NCBI RefSeq assembly: GCF_017349355.1
Contig: NZ_JAFMPM010000006.1
Span: 744,001-808,000, forward strand
From: Thiothrix fructosivorans
GTDB lineage: Bacteria; Pseudomonadota; Gammaproteobacteria; Thiotrichales; Thiotrichaceae
Direction of reading: 5' to 3'
DNA: 64,000 nt
The notes below the pieces were generated by a model that did not search any database, had not been told where the DNA came from, and saw only the letters and a program-made list of their open reading frames with translations. Both the position numbers and the translations under genes were made by a program. Shown here piece after piece: positions 16,492 to 60,880 of the stretch (the first letter of the stretch is position 1; each line of letters begins with the position of its first letter).

Positions 16492-17090
16492 TCGGATTAT
16501 TACGCGGCAAACTGCTAATCAAACAACCACCGGATTTAATGCTGGACGTAAACGGCGTGGGCTACGAAGTCCAAGCCTCGATGACCACCTTTTACGACCT
16601 GCCAGAATTACACGCGGAAGTCACCCTCTACACCCATTTCGTGGTGCGCGAAGATGCGCAATTGCTGTACGGCTTTAGCTCACAAACCGAACGTGAACTC
16701 TTCCGTCACTTGCTCAAAGTGAATGGTGTGGGGCCGAAGATGGCGCTGGCGATTGTGTCAGGGATGAACCCACTTGAATTCAACCAAGTGATTCACGCCG
16801 CTGACATTGCCCGCTTGAGCCGCATCCCCGGTGTTGGCAAGAAAACCGCTGAACGCTTGGTGATTGAGTTGCGCGATCGTTTACCCAAATCGGATGGGTA
16901 CGAAGCGGGGACAAGCACTCACGCCGCCCCTGCCTTGCCGAGCGTATCTGCTAGCGATGAAGCGATAAATGCACTGCTGGCATTGGGTTACAAACCCGCG
17001 CAAGCCAGTCAAATGATTGCCGCTTACGAAGATCAGGGCTTGAGTGTCGAAGACATGATCCGCCAAGCGCTTCGCGCCAGTCTGAAATAA
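16488..17090 (+). CDS. ruvA: Holliday junction DNA helicase subunit RuvA
   Basis: The product has 200 residues from the ATG at 16488, overlapping the ruvC stop (ATGA). It starts [28 protein letters not shown], has the helix-hairpin-helix pair [15 protein letters not shown] and [21 protein letters not shown], and ends with the domain III helix ([20 protein letters not shown]) that contacts RuvB. RuvA holds the junction in square form for branch migration. ruvB does not follow: the next 470 bp contain no gene and the next gene is on the other strand, so ruvB must be elsewhere. Confidence 0.96.
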
Positions 17091-17106
17091 TCCCGCGATT
17101 GTCACC

Positions 17107-17155
17107 TGACACCCGCGTGTCATGCGTAAAGTGTCAAACCTGTCACATTTTGACA
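17107..17155 (+). promoter_or_regulatory. Two TGTCA/TGACA dyads, possible enhancer sites for the sigma-54 promoter
   Basis: Dyad 1 is TGACAC-CCGC-GTGTCA (17107-17122). Dyad 2 is TGTCA-CATTT-TGACA (17141-17155), the core of a longer perfect repeat from 17136 to 17160. They share half-sites and lie roughly 115-165 bp before the predicted RNA start, where bacterial enhancer-binding proteins usually bind. Dyad 2 could instead, or also, fold as the end of the ruvA transcript, though no T-run follows. Confidence 0.5.
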
Positions 17156-17242
17156 GGTTTAGCGCCTGCCACAACTTGCCATTTATCCCGCAAATCCACC
17201 TTATAATCAGTAAAATGAATGACTTGCGTTTTTAAACGTGGG

Positions 17243-17259
17243 TTGGCACGCACGTTGCA
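17243..17259 (+). promoter_or_regulatory. Sigma-54 (RpoN) promoter, near-consensus
   Basis: TTGGCACGCACGTTGCA matches the consensus YTGGCACGrNNNTTGCW at all but the weak r position, with exactly 10 bp between the GG (17245-17246) and GC (17257-17258) elements. The predicted start of transcription is about 17270. No protein gene lies downstream on this strand before the terminator at 17525. Confidence 0.85.
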
Positions 17260-17269
17260 ATATCACTTA

Positions 17270-17552
17270 CACAGACTGAGACGGCAAAGACTAGAAGGTC
17301 TGGAAAGGGACGACAACAATAATAAGAAAGGGTTAAGGAAAGCATTTACCAGCAAGCCCCAAGAGACAGTGAGCAGGCATAAACATGAATAACAATAAAG
17401 CGCCTGCCATGTTTCGACTTCTCTAACCCTCTACCGATAAGGCGGGGGGTATTTATTAGAAGTTCGGTGTTTTGAACAACAATAATAATAAGCTAATAAT
17501 AATAACATTTGCCCGTGTTGACTGCCCCCGCTCGTCGGGGGTTTCGTTTTTT
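17270..17552 (+). ncRNA. Candidate sigma-54-dependent small RNA, Hfq-binding, CrcZ-like
   Basis: This stretch of about 283 nt runs from the sigma-54 promoter to an intrinsic terminator and holds no convincing gene. Within it are four uninterrupted AAN-triplet tracts: 17315-17326, 17388-17399, 17475-17492 and 17495-17506. AAN/ARN repeats are the sequences bound by the distal face of Hfq. In Pseudomonas, CrcZ and CrcY have this same design: sigma-54 promoter, several AAnAAnAA motifs, and a terminator; they soak up Hfq/Crc to relieve carbon catabolite repression. Function here is inference from architecture; I claim no sequence homology. A 13-codon frame (17385-17426) behind no clear ribosome site crosses the second tract and is probably incidental. 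Confidence 0.65.
17525..17552 (+). terminator. Rho-independent terminator of the candidate small RNA
   Basis: CCCCCG and CGGGGG pair around a 5-nt loop (CTCGT) and are followed by TTTCGTTTTTT. The T-run is on the plus strand, so it ends a plus-strand transcript although the nearest plus-strand gene (ruvA) stops 434 bp earlier. Confidence 0.9.
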
Positions 17553-17560
17553 AGGCGCTT

Positions 17561-18385
17561 TTAGCTACCGTCCGTCGTTTTCTCTTCTTGCTTGGCGCTA
17601 TTCCACGCCGCATCCATCTGCGCCATTGTCGCTTCCTCTAAAGTAATCCCCACGGCTGTCAACATTGCCTCGACGCGCTGGAAACGCCGTTCAAACTTTT
17701 TATTCGATAAACGTAAGGCATTTTCGGCATTCACGCCCAGCAAACGCGCTAAATTGGTGACGCTCATCAACACATCACCCACTTCTTCCTCAATCCGACT
17801 GTGGGATTCGCCTTTCGCAACCGCCTCCACCACTTCGTCCAACTCTTCCTGAATTTTGGGAAGCACTTGCTGCCAATGTTCCCAATCAAACCCGACCCCA
17901 GCTGCACGGCGTTGCAGTTTTTGGCTGCGCCGTAGGGCTGGCATTGCTACCGGAATTCCGGCAAAGAAGCCGATTTCGGTGGATTTAGTGCCGCGCTCAG
18001 TCTGCTTAATCGCATCCCACGCCTGTTTTTGCGCACGCTCATCGGTATAGACGGTATCACCGAAAACGTGCGGATGCCGTCGGATCATTTTGCGGGAAAT
18101 ACCTGCTGCGACCGTATCAAAGTCGAATAAACCTTGCTCACTGGCAATTTGTGCCATGAAAACAATCTGGAACAGTAAGTCGCCCAGCTCGTCACACAGT
18201 GCCGCCGCATCGTGCTTGTCTACTGCGTCAGCCACTTCGTACACCTCTTCCAAGGTGTAGGGCAAAATCGTTTGCCAAGTCTGCTGAATATCCCATGAAC
18301 AACCGTGCGCTGGATCACGCAAGCGCATCATAATATTAAGCAATTCCGTTATCGGTAGGTGACTTGATCCGTTTTTGCCTTGCAT
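17561..18385 (-). CDS. mazG: Nucleoside triphosphate pyrophosphohydrolase MazG
   Basis: The product has 274 residues from the ATG at 18385 (MQGKNGSSHLPITELLNIM); the frame is open further upstream but family similarity starts here. MazG hydrolyses (d)NTPs to monophosphates and pyrophosphate, clearing damaged or excess nucleotides. The first of two MazG domains has DPAHGCSWDIQQTW, LEEVYEVADAV and CDELGDLLFQIVF with the metal-binding acids; the second has ELDEVVEAVAKGE and EEEVGDVLMSVTNLAR. It is the E. coli-like long form. It is convergent with the candidate small RNA. Confidence 0.93.
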   Translation of the reverse strand: MQGKNGSSHLPITELLNIMMRLRDPAHGCSWDIQQTWQTILPYTLEEVYEVADAVDKHDAAALCDELGDLLFQIVFMAQIASEQGLFDFDTVAAGISRKMIRRHPHVFGDTVYTDERAQKQAWDAIKQTERGTKSTEIGFFAGIPVAMPALRRSQKLQRRAAGVGFDWEHWQQVLPKIQEELDEVVEAVAKGESHSRIEEEVGDVLMSVTNLARLLGVNAENALRLSNKKFERRFQRVEAMLTAVGITLEEATMAQMDAAWNSAKQEEKTTDGS

Positions 18386-18511: not shown

Positions 18512-18853
18512 ATGACTCTGAAACAAATCGCAGGCATTACCTTTGCCGCTCTGATGATCACCGCTGCGGGTGTTCACGCCGAAGACATGAAAATCGTCAA
18601 AAATGGCGATGGCGTTGCTGTCAAAAATAGCTTTGGCGAATGTGTCAAAGCTGTATACGGCTTCGAGCCAGAAGGCTGTGAAGCAGCACCAGAAGCAAAA
18701 CCAGAAGCCAAACCAGCGCCAACACCGCGTGCCGCGCCACGCGTAGCACCGCGTGCTCCCGTCGTACCTAAAGTGAAAGCAAAAGGTAACTACAAAGGCG
18801 CAGTGAATATGGATCCAGCTTCACGTAACGCAATGCAACGTTACAAAAAATAA
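18512..18853 (+). CDS. Small exported protein with Pro/Ala-rich tail
   Basis: The 113-residue protein starts 6 nt after AGGAGA. A signal peptide (MTLKQIAGITFAALMITAAGVHA) is followed by a short module, KIVKNGDGVAVKNSFGECVKAVYGFEPEGCEAAPE, with two Cys that may form a disulfide. Then come a Pro/Ala/Lys-rich linker and a basic end. The signal and the Cys module are shared with the OmpA-family protein at 19039, so the two genes are tandem duplicates of which this one lacks the OmpA domain. The rich positive charge of the tail could bind peptidoglycan or nucleic acid, but this is open. Confidence 0.75.
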   Translation: MTLKQIAGITFAALMITAAGVHAEDMKIVKNGDGVAVKNSFGECVKAVYGFEPEGCEAAPEAKPEAKPAPTPRAAPRVAPRAPVVPKVKAKGNYKGAVNMDPASRNAMQRYKK

Positions 18854-18899
18854 ACCCAACCAACTAGCCAGCCACTTGCTGGATTGTTGTGGGTTAAGC

Positions 18900-18937
18900 A
18901 AGCCCTTCTGCCGTTGGTAGGAGGGCTTTCATTTTTT
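18900..18937 (+). terminator. Rho-independent terminator
   Basis: AAGCCCTT pairs with GAGGGCTT around a 13-nt loop, followed by TCATTTTTT. It lies 46 bp after the stop of the small exported protein and separates it from its OmpA paralogue. Confidence 0.8.
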
Positions 18938-18964
18938 CAGCAAAAGAAAAATTCTTCTTAGAGA

Positions 18965-18994
18965 TAGGCACTTAACACGAAAATAACCTATAAT
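18965..18994 (+). promoter_or_regulatory. Likely sigma-70 promoter of the OmpA-family gene
   Basis: A perfect TATAAT (18989-18994) follows TAGGCA (18965-18970) with an 18-bp spacer, 45 bp before the start codon at 19039. The -35 box matches four of six consensus positions. Confidence 0.45.
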
Positions 18995-19038
18995 CGTAGC
19001 CGTTGTTGTATTTTTAAGACACTATAAGGAGATCACTC

Positions 19039-19647
19039 ATGACTCTAAAGAAAATGACAAGCATTGGTGTAACGGCTCTGATGGCAGCACTGATGACTAC
19101 CGCTACGTATGCAGAAGATGGCAAGTACGTCCAAAACAGTGAAGGCAAAGCCGTTAAAAACAGTGCTGACGAGTGTGTAAAAGCACAATTCGGCAGTATG
19201 CCAGAAGGCTGTGAAGCAGCGCCTGAACCAGCACCTGCTCCCGCACCAGCACCTCCACCGCCAAAACCAGCGCCAGCGCCTAAGCCGATTCAGCAAATGA
19301 CCCTGAATTCTGACGCTAACTTTGACTTCGACAAAGCCGTTCTGAAACCAGCAGGCAAAGCCAATCTGGATCAGTTCTTAGCAGGCTTAGCCGGTGCAAA
19401 AGTCACGGGCATTAACGTTGTTGGTCACACGGATAGCATCGGTTCTGATGCTTACAACCAAACGTTGTCTGAAAAGCGTGCAGCAGCCGTTGCCGACTAT
19501 CTGGTCAGCAAAGGTGTTCCAGCCGCCGCTATTAAAGCAGCCGGTAAAGGCGAAGCTCAACCCATCGCTGACAATGGTAGCAAAGCAGGTCGTGCGACTA
19601 ACCGTCGTACTGAAGTAGTAGCGCACGGTTCACGCAGCGCTCGCTAA
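19039..19647 (+). CDS. OmpA-family outer-membrane/peptidoglycan-binding protein
   Basis: The product has 202 residues. A signal peptide (MTLKKMTSIGVTALMAALMTTATYA) is followed by the Cys module shared with the preceding gene (KAVKNSADECVKAQFGSMPEGCEAAPE), a Pro/Ala linker, and a C-terminal OmpA domain (about 92-195). The domain has NFDFDKAVLKPAGKANLDQFL, VVGHTDSIGSDAYNQTLSEKRA and NRRTEVVAHG, with the Asp and Arg that bind diaminopimelate in peptidoglycan. There is no beta-barrel domain, so it is a periplasmic wall-binding protein, possibly tethered by the Cys module. AAGGAG precedes the ATG. Confidence 0.88.
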   Translation: MTLKKMTSIGVTALMAALMTTATYAEDGKYVQNSEGKAVKNSADECVKAQFGSMPEGCEAAPEPAPAPAPAPPPPKPAPAPKPIQQMTLNSDANFDFDKAVLKPAGKANLDQFLAGLAGAKVTGINVVGHTDSIGSDAYNQTLSEKRAAAVADYLVSKGVPAAAIKAAGKGEAQPIADNGSKAGRATNRRTEVVAHGSRSAR

Positions 19648-24670: not shown

Positions 24671-24815
24671 GTTCGCTTGTTCCGCAACCTAGTGCAAACC
24701 CTGTGCCATCAATCGGTTGCTCCATGCGAAATATCAAGTAATTGGGTAATAATATCCCCTAGAATTCAAAAGCATACTAAACGCTAGAACGCCGCTATCA
24801 CAGGAGGACACCCCC

Positions 24816-59288: not shown

Positions 59289-60880
59289 TAACTCAATTCC
59301 GCAAACGTTAGCCCGTATTTTTGCAAATACACCCGTAGTCGGTGCGAATCGTTCGCGCTGGCGCGTTGCGTGCGACTGATGTTGAATAGGGTGCGTCCTG
59401 CATCCGCCAAACTTTTAGCAGCGCGGCATACGCGGATGACTTCCGCCAATTGCACGCGGTCGAAATGATCAATGTTGGCAAGCACATCGTCCGCCACAAC
59501 TTCGCATAGCACGCTATCAGGATCGTTCCCGCTCGTCACGCTTTGGAAACTACCCCAATCGTAGCGCAAGCGGCGAATCTCTTCCGTCACGCTTTCTTCG
59601 GTAATGCGCCCGCCATTTGCCAACGTTGCCATGCGTGTGATGCTGGAATTGAGGTCGCGGAAATTCGCCCGCCACGTCGCTGCTGGAGTGTGCGCAAACG
59701 CGAGGTATTGTTCGCGTGCCGCTTTGTTGAAGCTGACTTTGTGCCCGACTTTGCGGGTGAATTGCTGCAATTCGTATTCGATATTCGCCTCCAAATCTTC
59801 GAGGCGGTGGCGCAAACCGGGGAGTTCATACGTCCACAAGTTGATGCGTGCCAGTAAGTCTTCGCGGAGTTTGCCATCACGTACCCGTTGGAACAGGTCG
59901 CGGTTGGTTCCGGCAATCAACTGGAAATCGCTGCTGGTTTCCTTGTCGCTGCCGAAGGGGGTGAATACTTTGTCTTCGATGGCGCGTAACAACATTGCTT
60001 GTTCGTCCAGCCCCAGTTCGCCGATTTCATCCAGAAACAGCAAACCTTTGTCGGCTTCACGCAGCAAGCCGCTGCGGGCGGTGAGTGCGCCGGTGAACGC
60101 GCCTTTCACATGCCCGAACAGTGCGGACATGGCATTGTCGCCGCGCAAGGTGGCGCAGTTGACTTCCACCAGTTTGCCGCTGACTTGCCCACGCTGCTTT
60201 TTCAGTTCGTAAATGCGTTTGGCGAGGCGTGATTTGCCCACACCGGTTGCTCCGGTGAGCAAGATCGGCGCGGCGGAGCGGATGGAGACTTGTTCGAGTT
60301 GCGCAATCAGCGCGTTGAAGGCGGGGTTGCGGGTGTCGATGCCGCCTTTCAGGTAGGCGATGCCTGCTTGGGCTTCGCGCTCGAAGCGGCTGGCGATTTG
60401 GTCGTAGCGTGATAGGTCGAGGTCGATGATTTGATACGTGCCTTGCACGCCTTCCGCACTCGGCGAGGTTTGTAGCAATTTGCCGGGGATGTAATTGGCT
60501 TCGGTGAGCAGGAACAGGCAGATTTGCGCAACGTGCGAACCCGTGGTGATGTGCACGTAGTAGCGTTGTTGCTCCGGGTCGAAACGTTGCTGGCGGGTGA
60601 ATTCGTGGAGCTGGTTATAGACTTGCTCGAAGTCCCACGGGTTGGCGTAGTCGACCACGTAGGGGGTGATGCGGGCGTGCGGCGCAAGATCGCGCATGTC
60701 ACGCAGGGTAACGGCAGCAAGCTCCACTTCGTCGAGGTGATGGATGAGGATGAATTCATCCACCGGAAATTCCGGGTGCATGAGGATGCTGACCGACGGT
60801 CGCCAGCGCGAGTGGCGGCGTTTGCCTAAGCCCTGCTGGTCAAGGCGCGAACCGAGGATGCTGATGACGGTGGTTTTCAT
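59288..60880 (-). CDS. rtcR: RtcR, sigma-54 activator of RNA repair genes
   Basis: The product has 530 residues. The N-terminal CARF domain (about 1-175) contains YYVHITTGSHVAQICLFLLTEA. The central AAA+ domain has Walker A GATGVGKS (210-217), the sigma-54 contact loop GAFTGA (260-265) and Walker B LLFLDEIGE. A C-terminal helix-turn-helix follows (VIRVCRAAKSLADAGRTLF). In enterics RtcR senses damaged RNA ends and switches on the divergent rtcBA operon. Here rtcA and rtcB are not beside it: the upstream neighbour is an AAA ATPase gene whose stop overlaps the rtcR start by 4 bp. Its target genes may therefore be elsewhere or different. Confidence 0.93.
   Translation of the reverse strand: MKTTVISILGSRLDQQGLGKRRHSRWRPSVSILMHPEFPVDEFILIHHLDEVELAAVTLRDMRDLAPHARITPYVVDYANPWDFEQVYNQLHEFTRQQRFDPEQQRYYVHITTGSHVAQICLFLLTEANYIPGKLLQTSPSAEGVQGTYQIIDLDLSRYDQIASRFEREAQAGIAYLKGGIDTRNPAFNALIAQLEQVSIRSAAPILLTGATGVGKSRLAKRIYELKKQRGQVSGKLVEVNCATLRGDNAMSALFGHVKGAFTGALTARSGLLREADKGLLFLDEIGELGLDEQAMLLRAIEDKVFTPFGSDKETSSDFQLIAGTNRDLFQRVRDGKLREDLLARINLWTYELPGLRHRLEDLEANIEYELQQFTRKVGHKVSFNKAAREQYLAFAHTPAATWRANFRDLNSSITRMATLANGGRITEESVTEEIRRLRYDWGSFQSVTSGNDPDSVLCEVVADDVLANIDHFDRVQLAEVIRVCRAAKSLADAGRTLFNISRTQRASANDSHRLRVYLQKYGLTFAELS

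Follow-up and report, generated by a model that had tools for sequence, protein, structure and literature searches.

The intergenic stretch between ruvA and mazG in Thiothrix fructosivorans raises the question of whether it specifies an RNA that captures Hfq in the manner of the pseudomonad CrcZ, as a sequence-only reading of this DNA had proposed, and, if so, what might switch such an RNA on and to what end. Coordinates given here without further qualification refer to the window, i.e., the whole 64-kb stretch of DNA that was analyzed.

A conserved, multi-copy RNA family

The placement of the locus is borne out by the list of open reading frames, in which ruvA ends at 17090 and the mazG frame on the minus strand has its stop at 17561. 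Between them, on the plus strand, the near-consensus -24/-12 promoter that had been proposed, TTGGCACGCACGTTGCA, is found at 17243-17259, and similar sigma-54-type promoters occur 5' of the homologues and paralogues of the RNA. Its position places the start of a predicted small RNA of about 283 nt, a long form with one module, near 17270 (17270-17552, plus strand); the segment is 85-86% identical over almost its full length in five relatives. The description of this stretch as gene-free also holds, with two plus-strand ORFs of at least 40 aa overlapping it, neither of them gene-like: one of 57 aa (17219-17392) that begins before the promoter and one of 45 aa (17509-17646). An intrinsic terminator is present, as had been claimed, at 17524-17542 on the plus strand with a T tail to 17552, the only one found in 17090-17600, where 0.3 would be expected. 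Further along, the window encodes at 18512-19647 two adjacent small, apparently secreted proteins with a related N-terminal part (EDMKIVKNGDG and EDGKYVQNSEG).

All four AAN tracts of the sequence-only reading are present on the plus strand, the first being one triplet longer than claimed: tract 1 (AACAATAATAAGAAA) spans 15 nt at 17315-17329, tract 2 (AATAACAATAAA) lies in an apical loop at 17388-17399, tract 3 comprises six triplets at 17475-17492 and tract 4 lies at 17495-17506. Four (AAN)≥4 tracts within 283 nt are far beyond chance; when the segment was shuffled 5000 times under a first-order Markov model, no shuffle had at least three (mean 0.065), and the RNA segment holds four of the 11 such tracts across the entire window (seven on the plus and four on the minus strand). 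Immediately 5' of the terminator is an element of the long form, TTTGCCCGTGTTGACT (17508-17523, plus strand), and GCCCGTGTTGACT is found in 15 of 20 loci (L001-L020).

Covariance and motif searches in relatives, which the sequence-only reading had named as a check, revealed that the RNA, the promoter and the AAN tracts are kept across the bacterial family. In a DNA search of 57 genomes, all 16 of the same genus (own included) were matched, together with four of 20 other genomes of the same family and none of 21 other genomes of the class. A covariance model, run with stricter filters in the searches of both the order and the class, matched 54 of 63 genomes of the window's order, representing all eight genera, and three of the 369 genomes sampled in the class, each of which belongs to the same family. 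Likewise, a pattern scan of GTDB contigs recovered 17 stretches, 16 of them with Thiothrix or Thiotrichaceae in the title and one with Gammaproteobacteria. Both ruvA and mazG surround the RNA in 15 of 38 loci, one of the two genes does so in five and neither in 18 (about 3 kb covered per locus, 5 kb for one). Thiothrix genomes have two to three RNA genes each, with one or two modules per gene; the own genome has three, namely the window copy plus a pair of short copies separated by 2.9 kb, of which the second lies directly upstream of speA (biosynthetic arginine decarboxylase). Long forms contain one or two modules in Thiothrix and up to three elsewhere, plus extra AAN tracts, and short forms contain one. 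At gathering thresholds, Rfam returned no match to the RNA in the window or in eight further loci, and none of the literature on Thiothrix small RNAs and Hfq, on Hfq and pilA or on CrcZ, among the matches listed (titles and abstract starts), describes it. A plasmid or viral origin was discarded, the viral contig and plasmid collections having no match to the RNA. Judged by sequence, the window locus is the long form of a multi-copy, modular RNA family of its own.

A covarying module with a predicted Hfq signature

The modules share a layout of a CAGCAAGCCCC arm, a two-helix hairpin displaying an AAN tract in its loop and a G+C-rich hairpin. In the window copy the arm occupies 17350-17360 (plus strand), outside the stem with a mean unpaired probability of 0.72, and it is near-invariant across 51 modules and 30 held-out modules. 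The hairpin that follows (17363-17415, plus strand) pairs GAGACA (17363-17368) with TGTTTC (17410-17415) in helix 1 and CAGGC (17374-17378) with GCCTG (17402-17406) in helix 2, and these stems covary. In alignment A2, which has 46 modules (43 distinct) after exclusion of five variant modules of the 51, 95.7% of the stem cells pair and 39 are double-change cells, with a covariation score reached by none of 500 shuffles; two of the five measures were weaker, pairs with double changes being reached by 23 and further pair types by 406 of 500 shuffles. The 30 held-out modules (26 distinct) come from 18 stretches that we selected from the order-wide covariance matches, some of them from model-building genera. 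In these 95.7% of the cells again pair, 10 of 11 pairs are changed on both sides and the covariation score is reached by 0/500 shuffles; this alignment was fitted to the model, which biases the figures toward the structure. The predicted fold of the whole RNA exceeds shuffles in stability by a small margin only (z -1.61; 10 of 200 equally stable). In this single-sequence fold the mean unpaired probability of the four AAN tracts is 0.82 (over 17315-17326), 0.91, 0.60 and 0.46 as against 0.46 overall, such that tracts 3 and 4 seem only moderately open, the last being close to the RNA average. By eye, the loop of hairpin 2 is of a UUCCCC(C)G type in several modules of genera g4, g7 and g8 (L259-L276).

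Within the AAN loop the A positions are conserved in 43-46 of the 46 modules and each third base is variable; among the held-out modules (AAN)≥3 is found in 29 of 30 and (AAN)≥4 in 24 of 30. PMC6422490 gives A-R-N as the code of the Hfq distal face. The period-3 pattern of the loop corresponds to this code and leads us to predict that the RNA binds Hfq. Hfq itself is encoded in seven of eight genomes tested, and the own protein is closely similar to solved Hfq chains, its residues 1-71 aligning without gaps to the Hfq chain also present in the Crc complex entry 8bvh. One genome (G019, L112) has a second, divergent Hfq-like protein besides the canonical one (72 vs 102 bits). The eighth genome, G018 of genus g4 (100% complete), showed no Hfq family match, and the 2.0 of its approximately 4.5 Mb that were scanned held neither hfq nor its two own-genome neighbors, which we take to be miaA and hflX. 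G018 retains the RNA (L259, L260), with its promoter, an activator-like site and AAN hairpins.

A putative activator site common to the RNA and type IV pilin genes

Upstream of the window promoter lies a putative PilR activator site, CTGTCACATTTTGACAG (17140-17156, plus strand), with additional TGTC/GACA half-sites at 17100-17136 on the same strand. Its position is conserved: allowing at most two substitutions, 41 of the 43 distinct RNA promoters have the site at -108 to -92 relative to the -24 box (1.4% in Markov controls), and 37 of 43 have the strict form TGTC-N7-GACA (0.07% in Markov controls), after exclusion of two false promoter matches of 46 and of one of 44 with under 130 nt of upstream sequence. 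In the own genome, the strict site combined with the promoter gave three matches, all at the three RNAs, and none in the control; with upstream DNA read for 30 of the 40 promoter-like sites, the strict site stands at the three RNAs and at none of the 27 others. The minus strand of the window also has a promoter-like TGGCACAGGGTTTGCA at 24693-24708 (L133), 103 nt upstream of which is a loose TGTC-type match.

When CTGTC-N7-GACAG, located some 102 nt upstream of the -24 box, was combined with a looser promoter, the 16 genomes of the genus yielded 47 matches and the control none. Of these, 38 precede RNA modules (38 of 43 RNA units, the strict pattern being absent from the other five). The remaining nine are all found 5' of type IV pilin genes; in the own genome, G005 and G013, one such match lies downstream of pilR at a distance of no more than 1.5 kb. 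The own genome has the order pilS, pilR, pilin, with PilS above the cut-off of Pfam 6TM_PilS and the pilin above that of Pfam Pilin, and TTGTCACTTTCGGACAG lies 102 nt 5' of the -24 box of this pilin; at other sigma-54-type pilins the site is found about 77 to 107 nt before the box. The RNA has the activator site and sigma-54 promoter found at the pilin beside pilR, and the two kinds of gene form a common predicted regulon. They agree in the site, in similar spacing, in the -24/-12 box and in the genomes that contain them, and differ in that the product of the RNA locus is a predicted non-coding RNA. At one locus (L161, 2886-4081) two pilin genes follow pilSR, with a sigma-54-type promoter and activator site at the first only.

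As the same site is found before pilin genes, of which three lie a short way downstream of pilR, the likely activator of the RNA family is PilR. The name rests on the adjoining pilS and pilin genes, as no library model supplies it; the own PilR candidate exceeds no NCBIfam cut-off among the models listed. For P. aeruginosa, PMC6058289 describes PilR sites as marked by TGT-N11-AGA and GTCT elements. A PilR relative at E 1e-120 is present in 55 of 63 genomes of the order; four genomes have the RNA and no PilR match at this threshold (G421, G424, G425 and G426, two of which are 96% complete), and five have PilR and no RNA match (G035, G407, G411, G420 and G427). G002, G003, G007, G009, G012 and G014 each encode a second protein resembling PilR, with 65-68% identity to that of the own genome. 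GlrR (QseF) was considered as the activator and rejected: the family resembles GlmY/GlmZ, of which GlmY is itself a decoy, in being a sigma-54 small RNA with TGTC/GACA activator half-sites, but the half-sites are spaced by N7 in the Thiothrix RNA as opposed to N10 in PMC8745638, and none of the eight main own-genome activators reaches the GlrR cut-off. The window also codes for the Sigma-54 domain of the RNA-repair activator RtcR (59834-60334, minus strand; protein 768 bits vs cut-off 650). Among the literature matches listed, none reports a PilR-activated small RNA.

The pilin leaders provide a candidate target. AAYAAYAAGG is found at the Shine-Dalgarno position in 11 of 15 distinct sigma-54-type pilin leaders with promoter and site, as against none of 11 other pilins and none of 79 other own-genome genes (37 loci examined, 19 of them without a pilin; identical leaders counted once). 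Hfq would, by analogy, repress pilA until the co-induced RNA freed it.

Competing readings and a proposed role

In pseudomonads, the CrcZ family is an established case of a dedicated RNA that titrates Hfq directly. The present family is like CrcZ, CrcY and CrcX of Pseudomonas and Azotobacter, to judge from its sequences, in having a sigma-54 promoter, a probable two-component enhancer-binding activator, redundant copies and multiple A-R-N patches, four in the window copy, suited to the Hfq distal face. That it is a CrcZ orthologue working with Crc in carbon catabolite repression is nevertheless highly improbable. Homology to CrcZ (RF01675) was rejected, the model giving a weak match over an AAN tract of the window segment (E 0.0078 in a 401-base search) whose 17.9 bits fall short of the gathering score of 95; a search of the own genome with it gave no match, although control genomes gave none either. 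PMC6296734 places CrcZ in Pseudomonas and Azotobacter and gives TGTTAC/GTAACA as the CbrB subsite, which is absent from the 200 nt 5' of the window promoter and occurs at three of 43 family promoters. The expectation that Crc would be missing agrees with what we found: the own genome has three Exo_endo_phos matches, and neither of the two of ExoIII size is a degenerate Crc (the third, L128, of 611 aa, being set aside). Crc as the Hfq partner was rejected in turn, the protein nearest to Crc being an intact ExoIII that retains the residues lost in Crc and scores 355 bits for ExoIII vs 242 for Crc; another of the three matches, L126, was judged by eye. The family further differs from CrcZ in its modular covarying hairpins with AGCAAGCCCC, in an activator site common to pilins and in the location of its long copy between ruvA and mazG. 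Of the proposed CrcZ-like Hfq sponge, a sigma-54-type promoter before a conserved RNA with A-R-N tracts stands, whereas kinship with CrcZ does not, and a second near-invariant element, AGCAAGCCCC, has to be added; with its CrcZ-like design, the RNA is best regarded as a new sponge-type family that is unrelated to CrcZ.

The AGCAAGCCCC arm lies outside the stem in all genera seen and is the strongest conserved sequence of the RNA; the sponge model does not account for it, which suggests a further or different ligand. In class II small RNAs an AAN-type element docks Hfq, and it is possible, if doubtful, that we are dealing with a set of base-pairing small RNAs whose AAN loops only dock Hfq and whose single-stranded AGCAAGCCCC is an mRNA seed, the copies being redundant, as they are among the Qrr RNAs of Vibrio. 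The near-invariant, exposed arm and the two to three copies per genome fit such a set, as does the exact anti-seed GGGGCTTGCTG, which occurs 46 times in four genomes as against 0 for the backward control; by our count from the coordinates, 14 of these are the RNA itself and 32 lie elsewhere, and the own genome has 15 outside the RNA vs about two expected from base composition. However, of 30 anti-seed loci read, seven are the RNA itself and most of the other 23 fall within ORFs or on the strand opposite to them; at L243, L245 and L252 an ORF starts 28-40 nt downstream, two inside a longer ORF. No convincing leader emerged from these 23 of the 32 non-self sites, and a seed-target model was rejected in so far as it concerns the exact 11-mer. 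Moreover, the repetition of whole modules, up to three per RNA, better suits multivalent protein binding. The family shares with Qrr what appears to be sigma-54 dependence and several redundant copies, but lacks an Rfam match at gathering, and none of the eight main own-genome activators (five weaker PF00158 matches aside) exceeds the LuxO cut-off. We regard it as unlikely that the RNA sponges an RNA-binding protein other than Hfq, or Hfq along with a further protein recognizing AGCAAGCCCC and the C-rich hairpin 2 loop. Such a protein would suit the near-invariant arm, the UUCCCC-type loop seen by eye in several g4, g7 and g8 loci and the retention of the RNA in a genome with no Hfq match; against it, the period-3 AAN pattern fits the distal-face code given in PMC6422490 and Hfq is present in seven of the eight genomes tested.

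The best explanation, to which we assign a probability of about 0.5, is a modular Hfq sponge induced by PilR and sigma-54 and co-expressed with pilA in a feed-forward arrangement. PilR, also the activator of the pilin gene, would switch on the RNA via CTGTC-N7-GACAG about 102 nt 5' of the -24 box; each module would display an (AAN)n loop atop its conserved stem, and the several AAN tracts of an RNA would bind the distal face of Hfq hexamers, titrating Hfq off mRNAs that bear AAN tracts at the ribosome-binding site. Under the same regulator and with AAYAAYAAGG at its Shine-Dalgarno position, pilA would be a likely beneficiary, closing a coherent feed-forward loop. The promoter and site common to the RNA and the pilin gene suggest a connection between pilus sensing and the global control of RNA. 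A bolder form of this proposal, which we offer tentatively, is that across the entire family PilS-PilR drives the pilin together with a dedicated modular sponge that arose independently of CrcZ and acts without Crc, such that pilus or surface sensing lifts Hfq repression of pilA and other AAN mRNAs.

If the sponge proposal is true, a second, unrelated, multi-copy design in another bacterial family would make Hfq sponging a convergent strategy. It predicts specific targets in the AAYAAYAAGG pilin leaders, and an RNA driven by the pilin regulator would couple type IV pilus sensing to the global control of translation.
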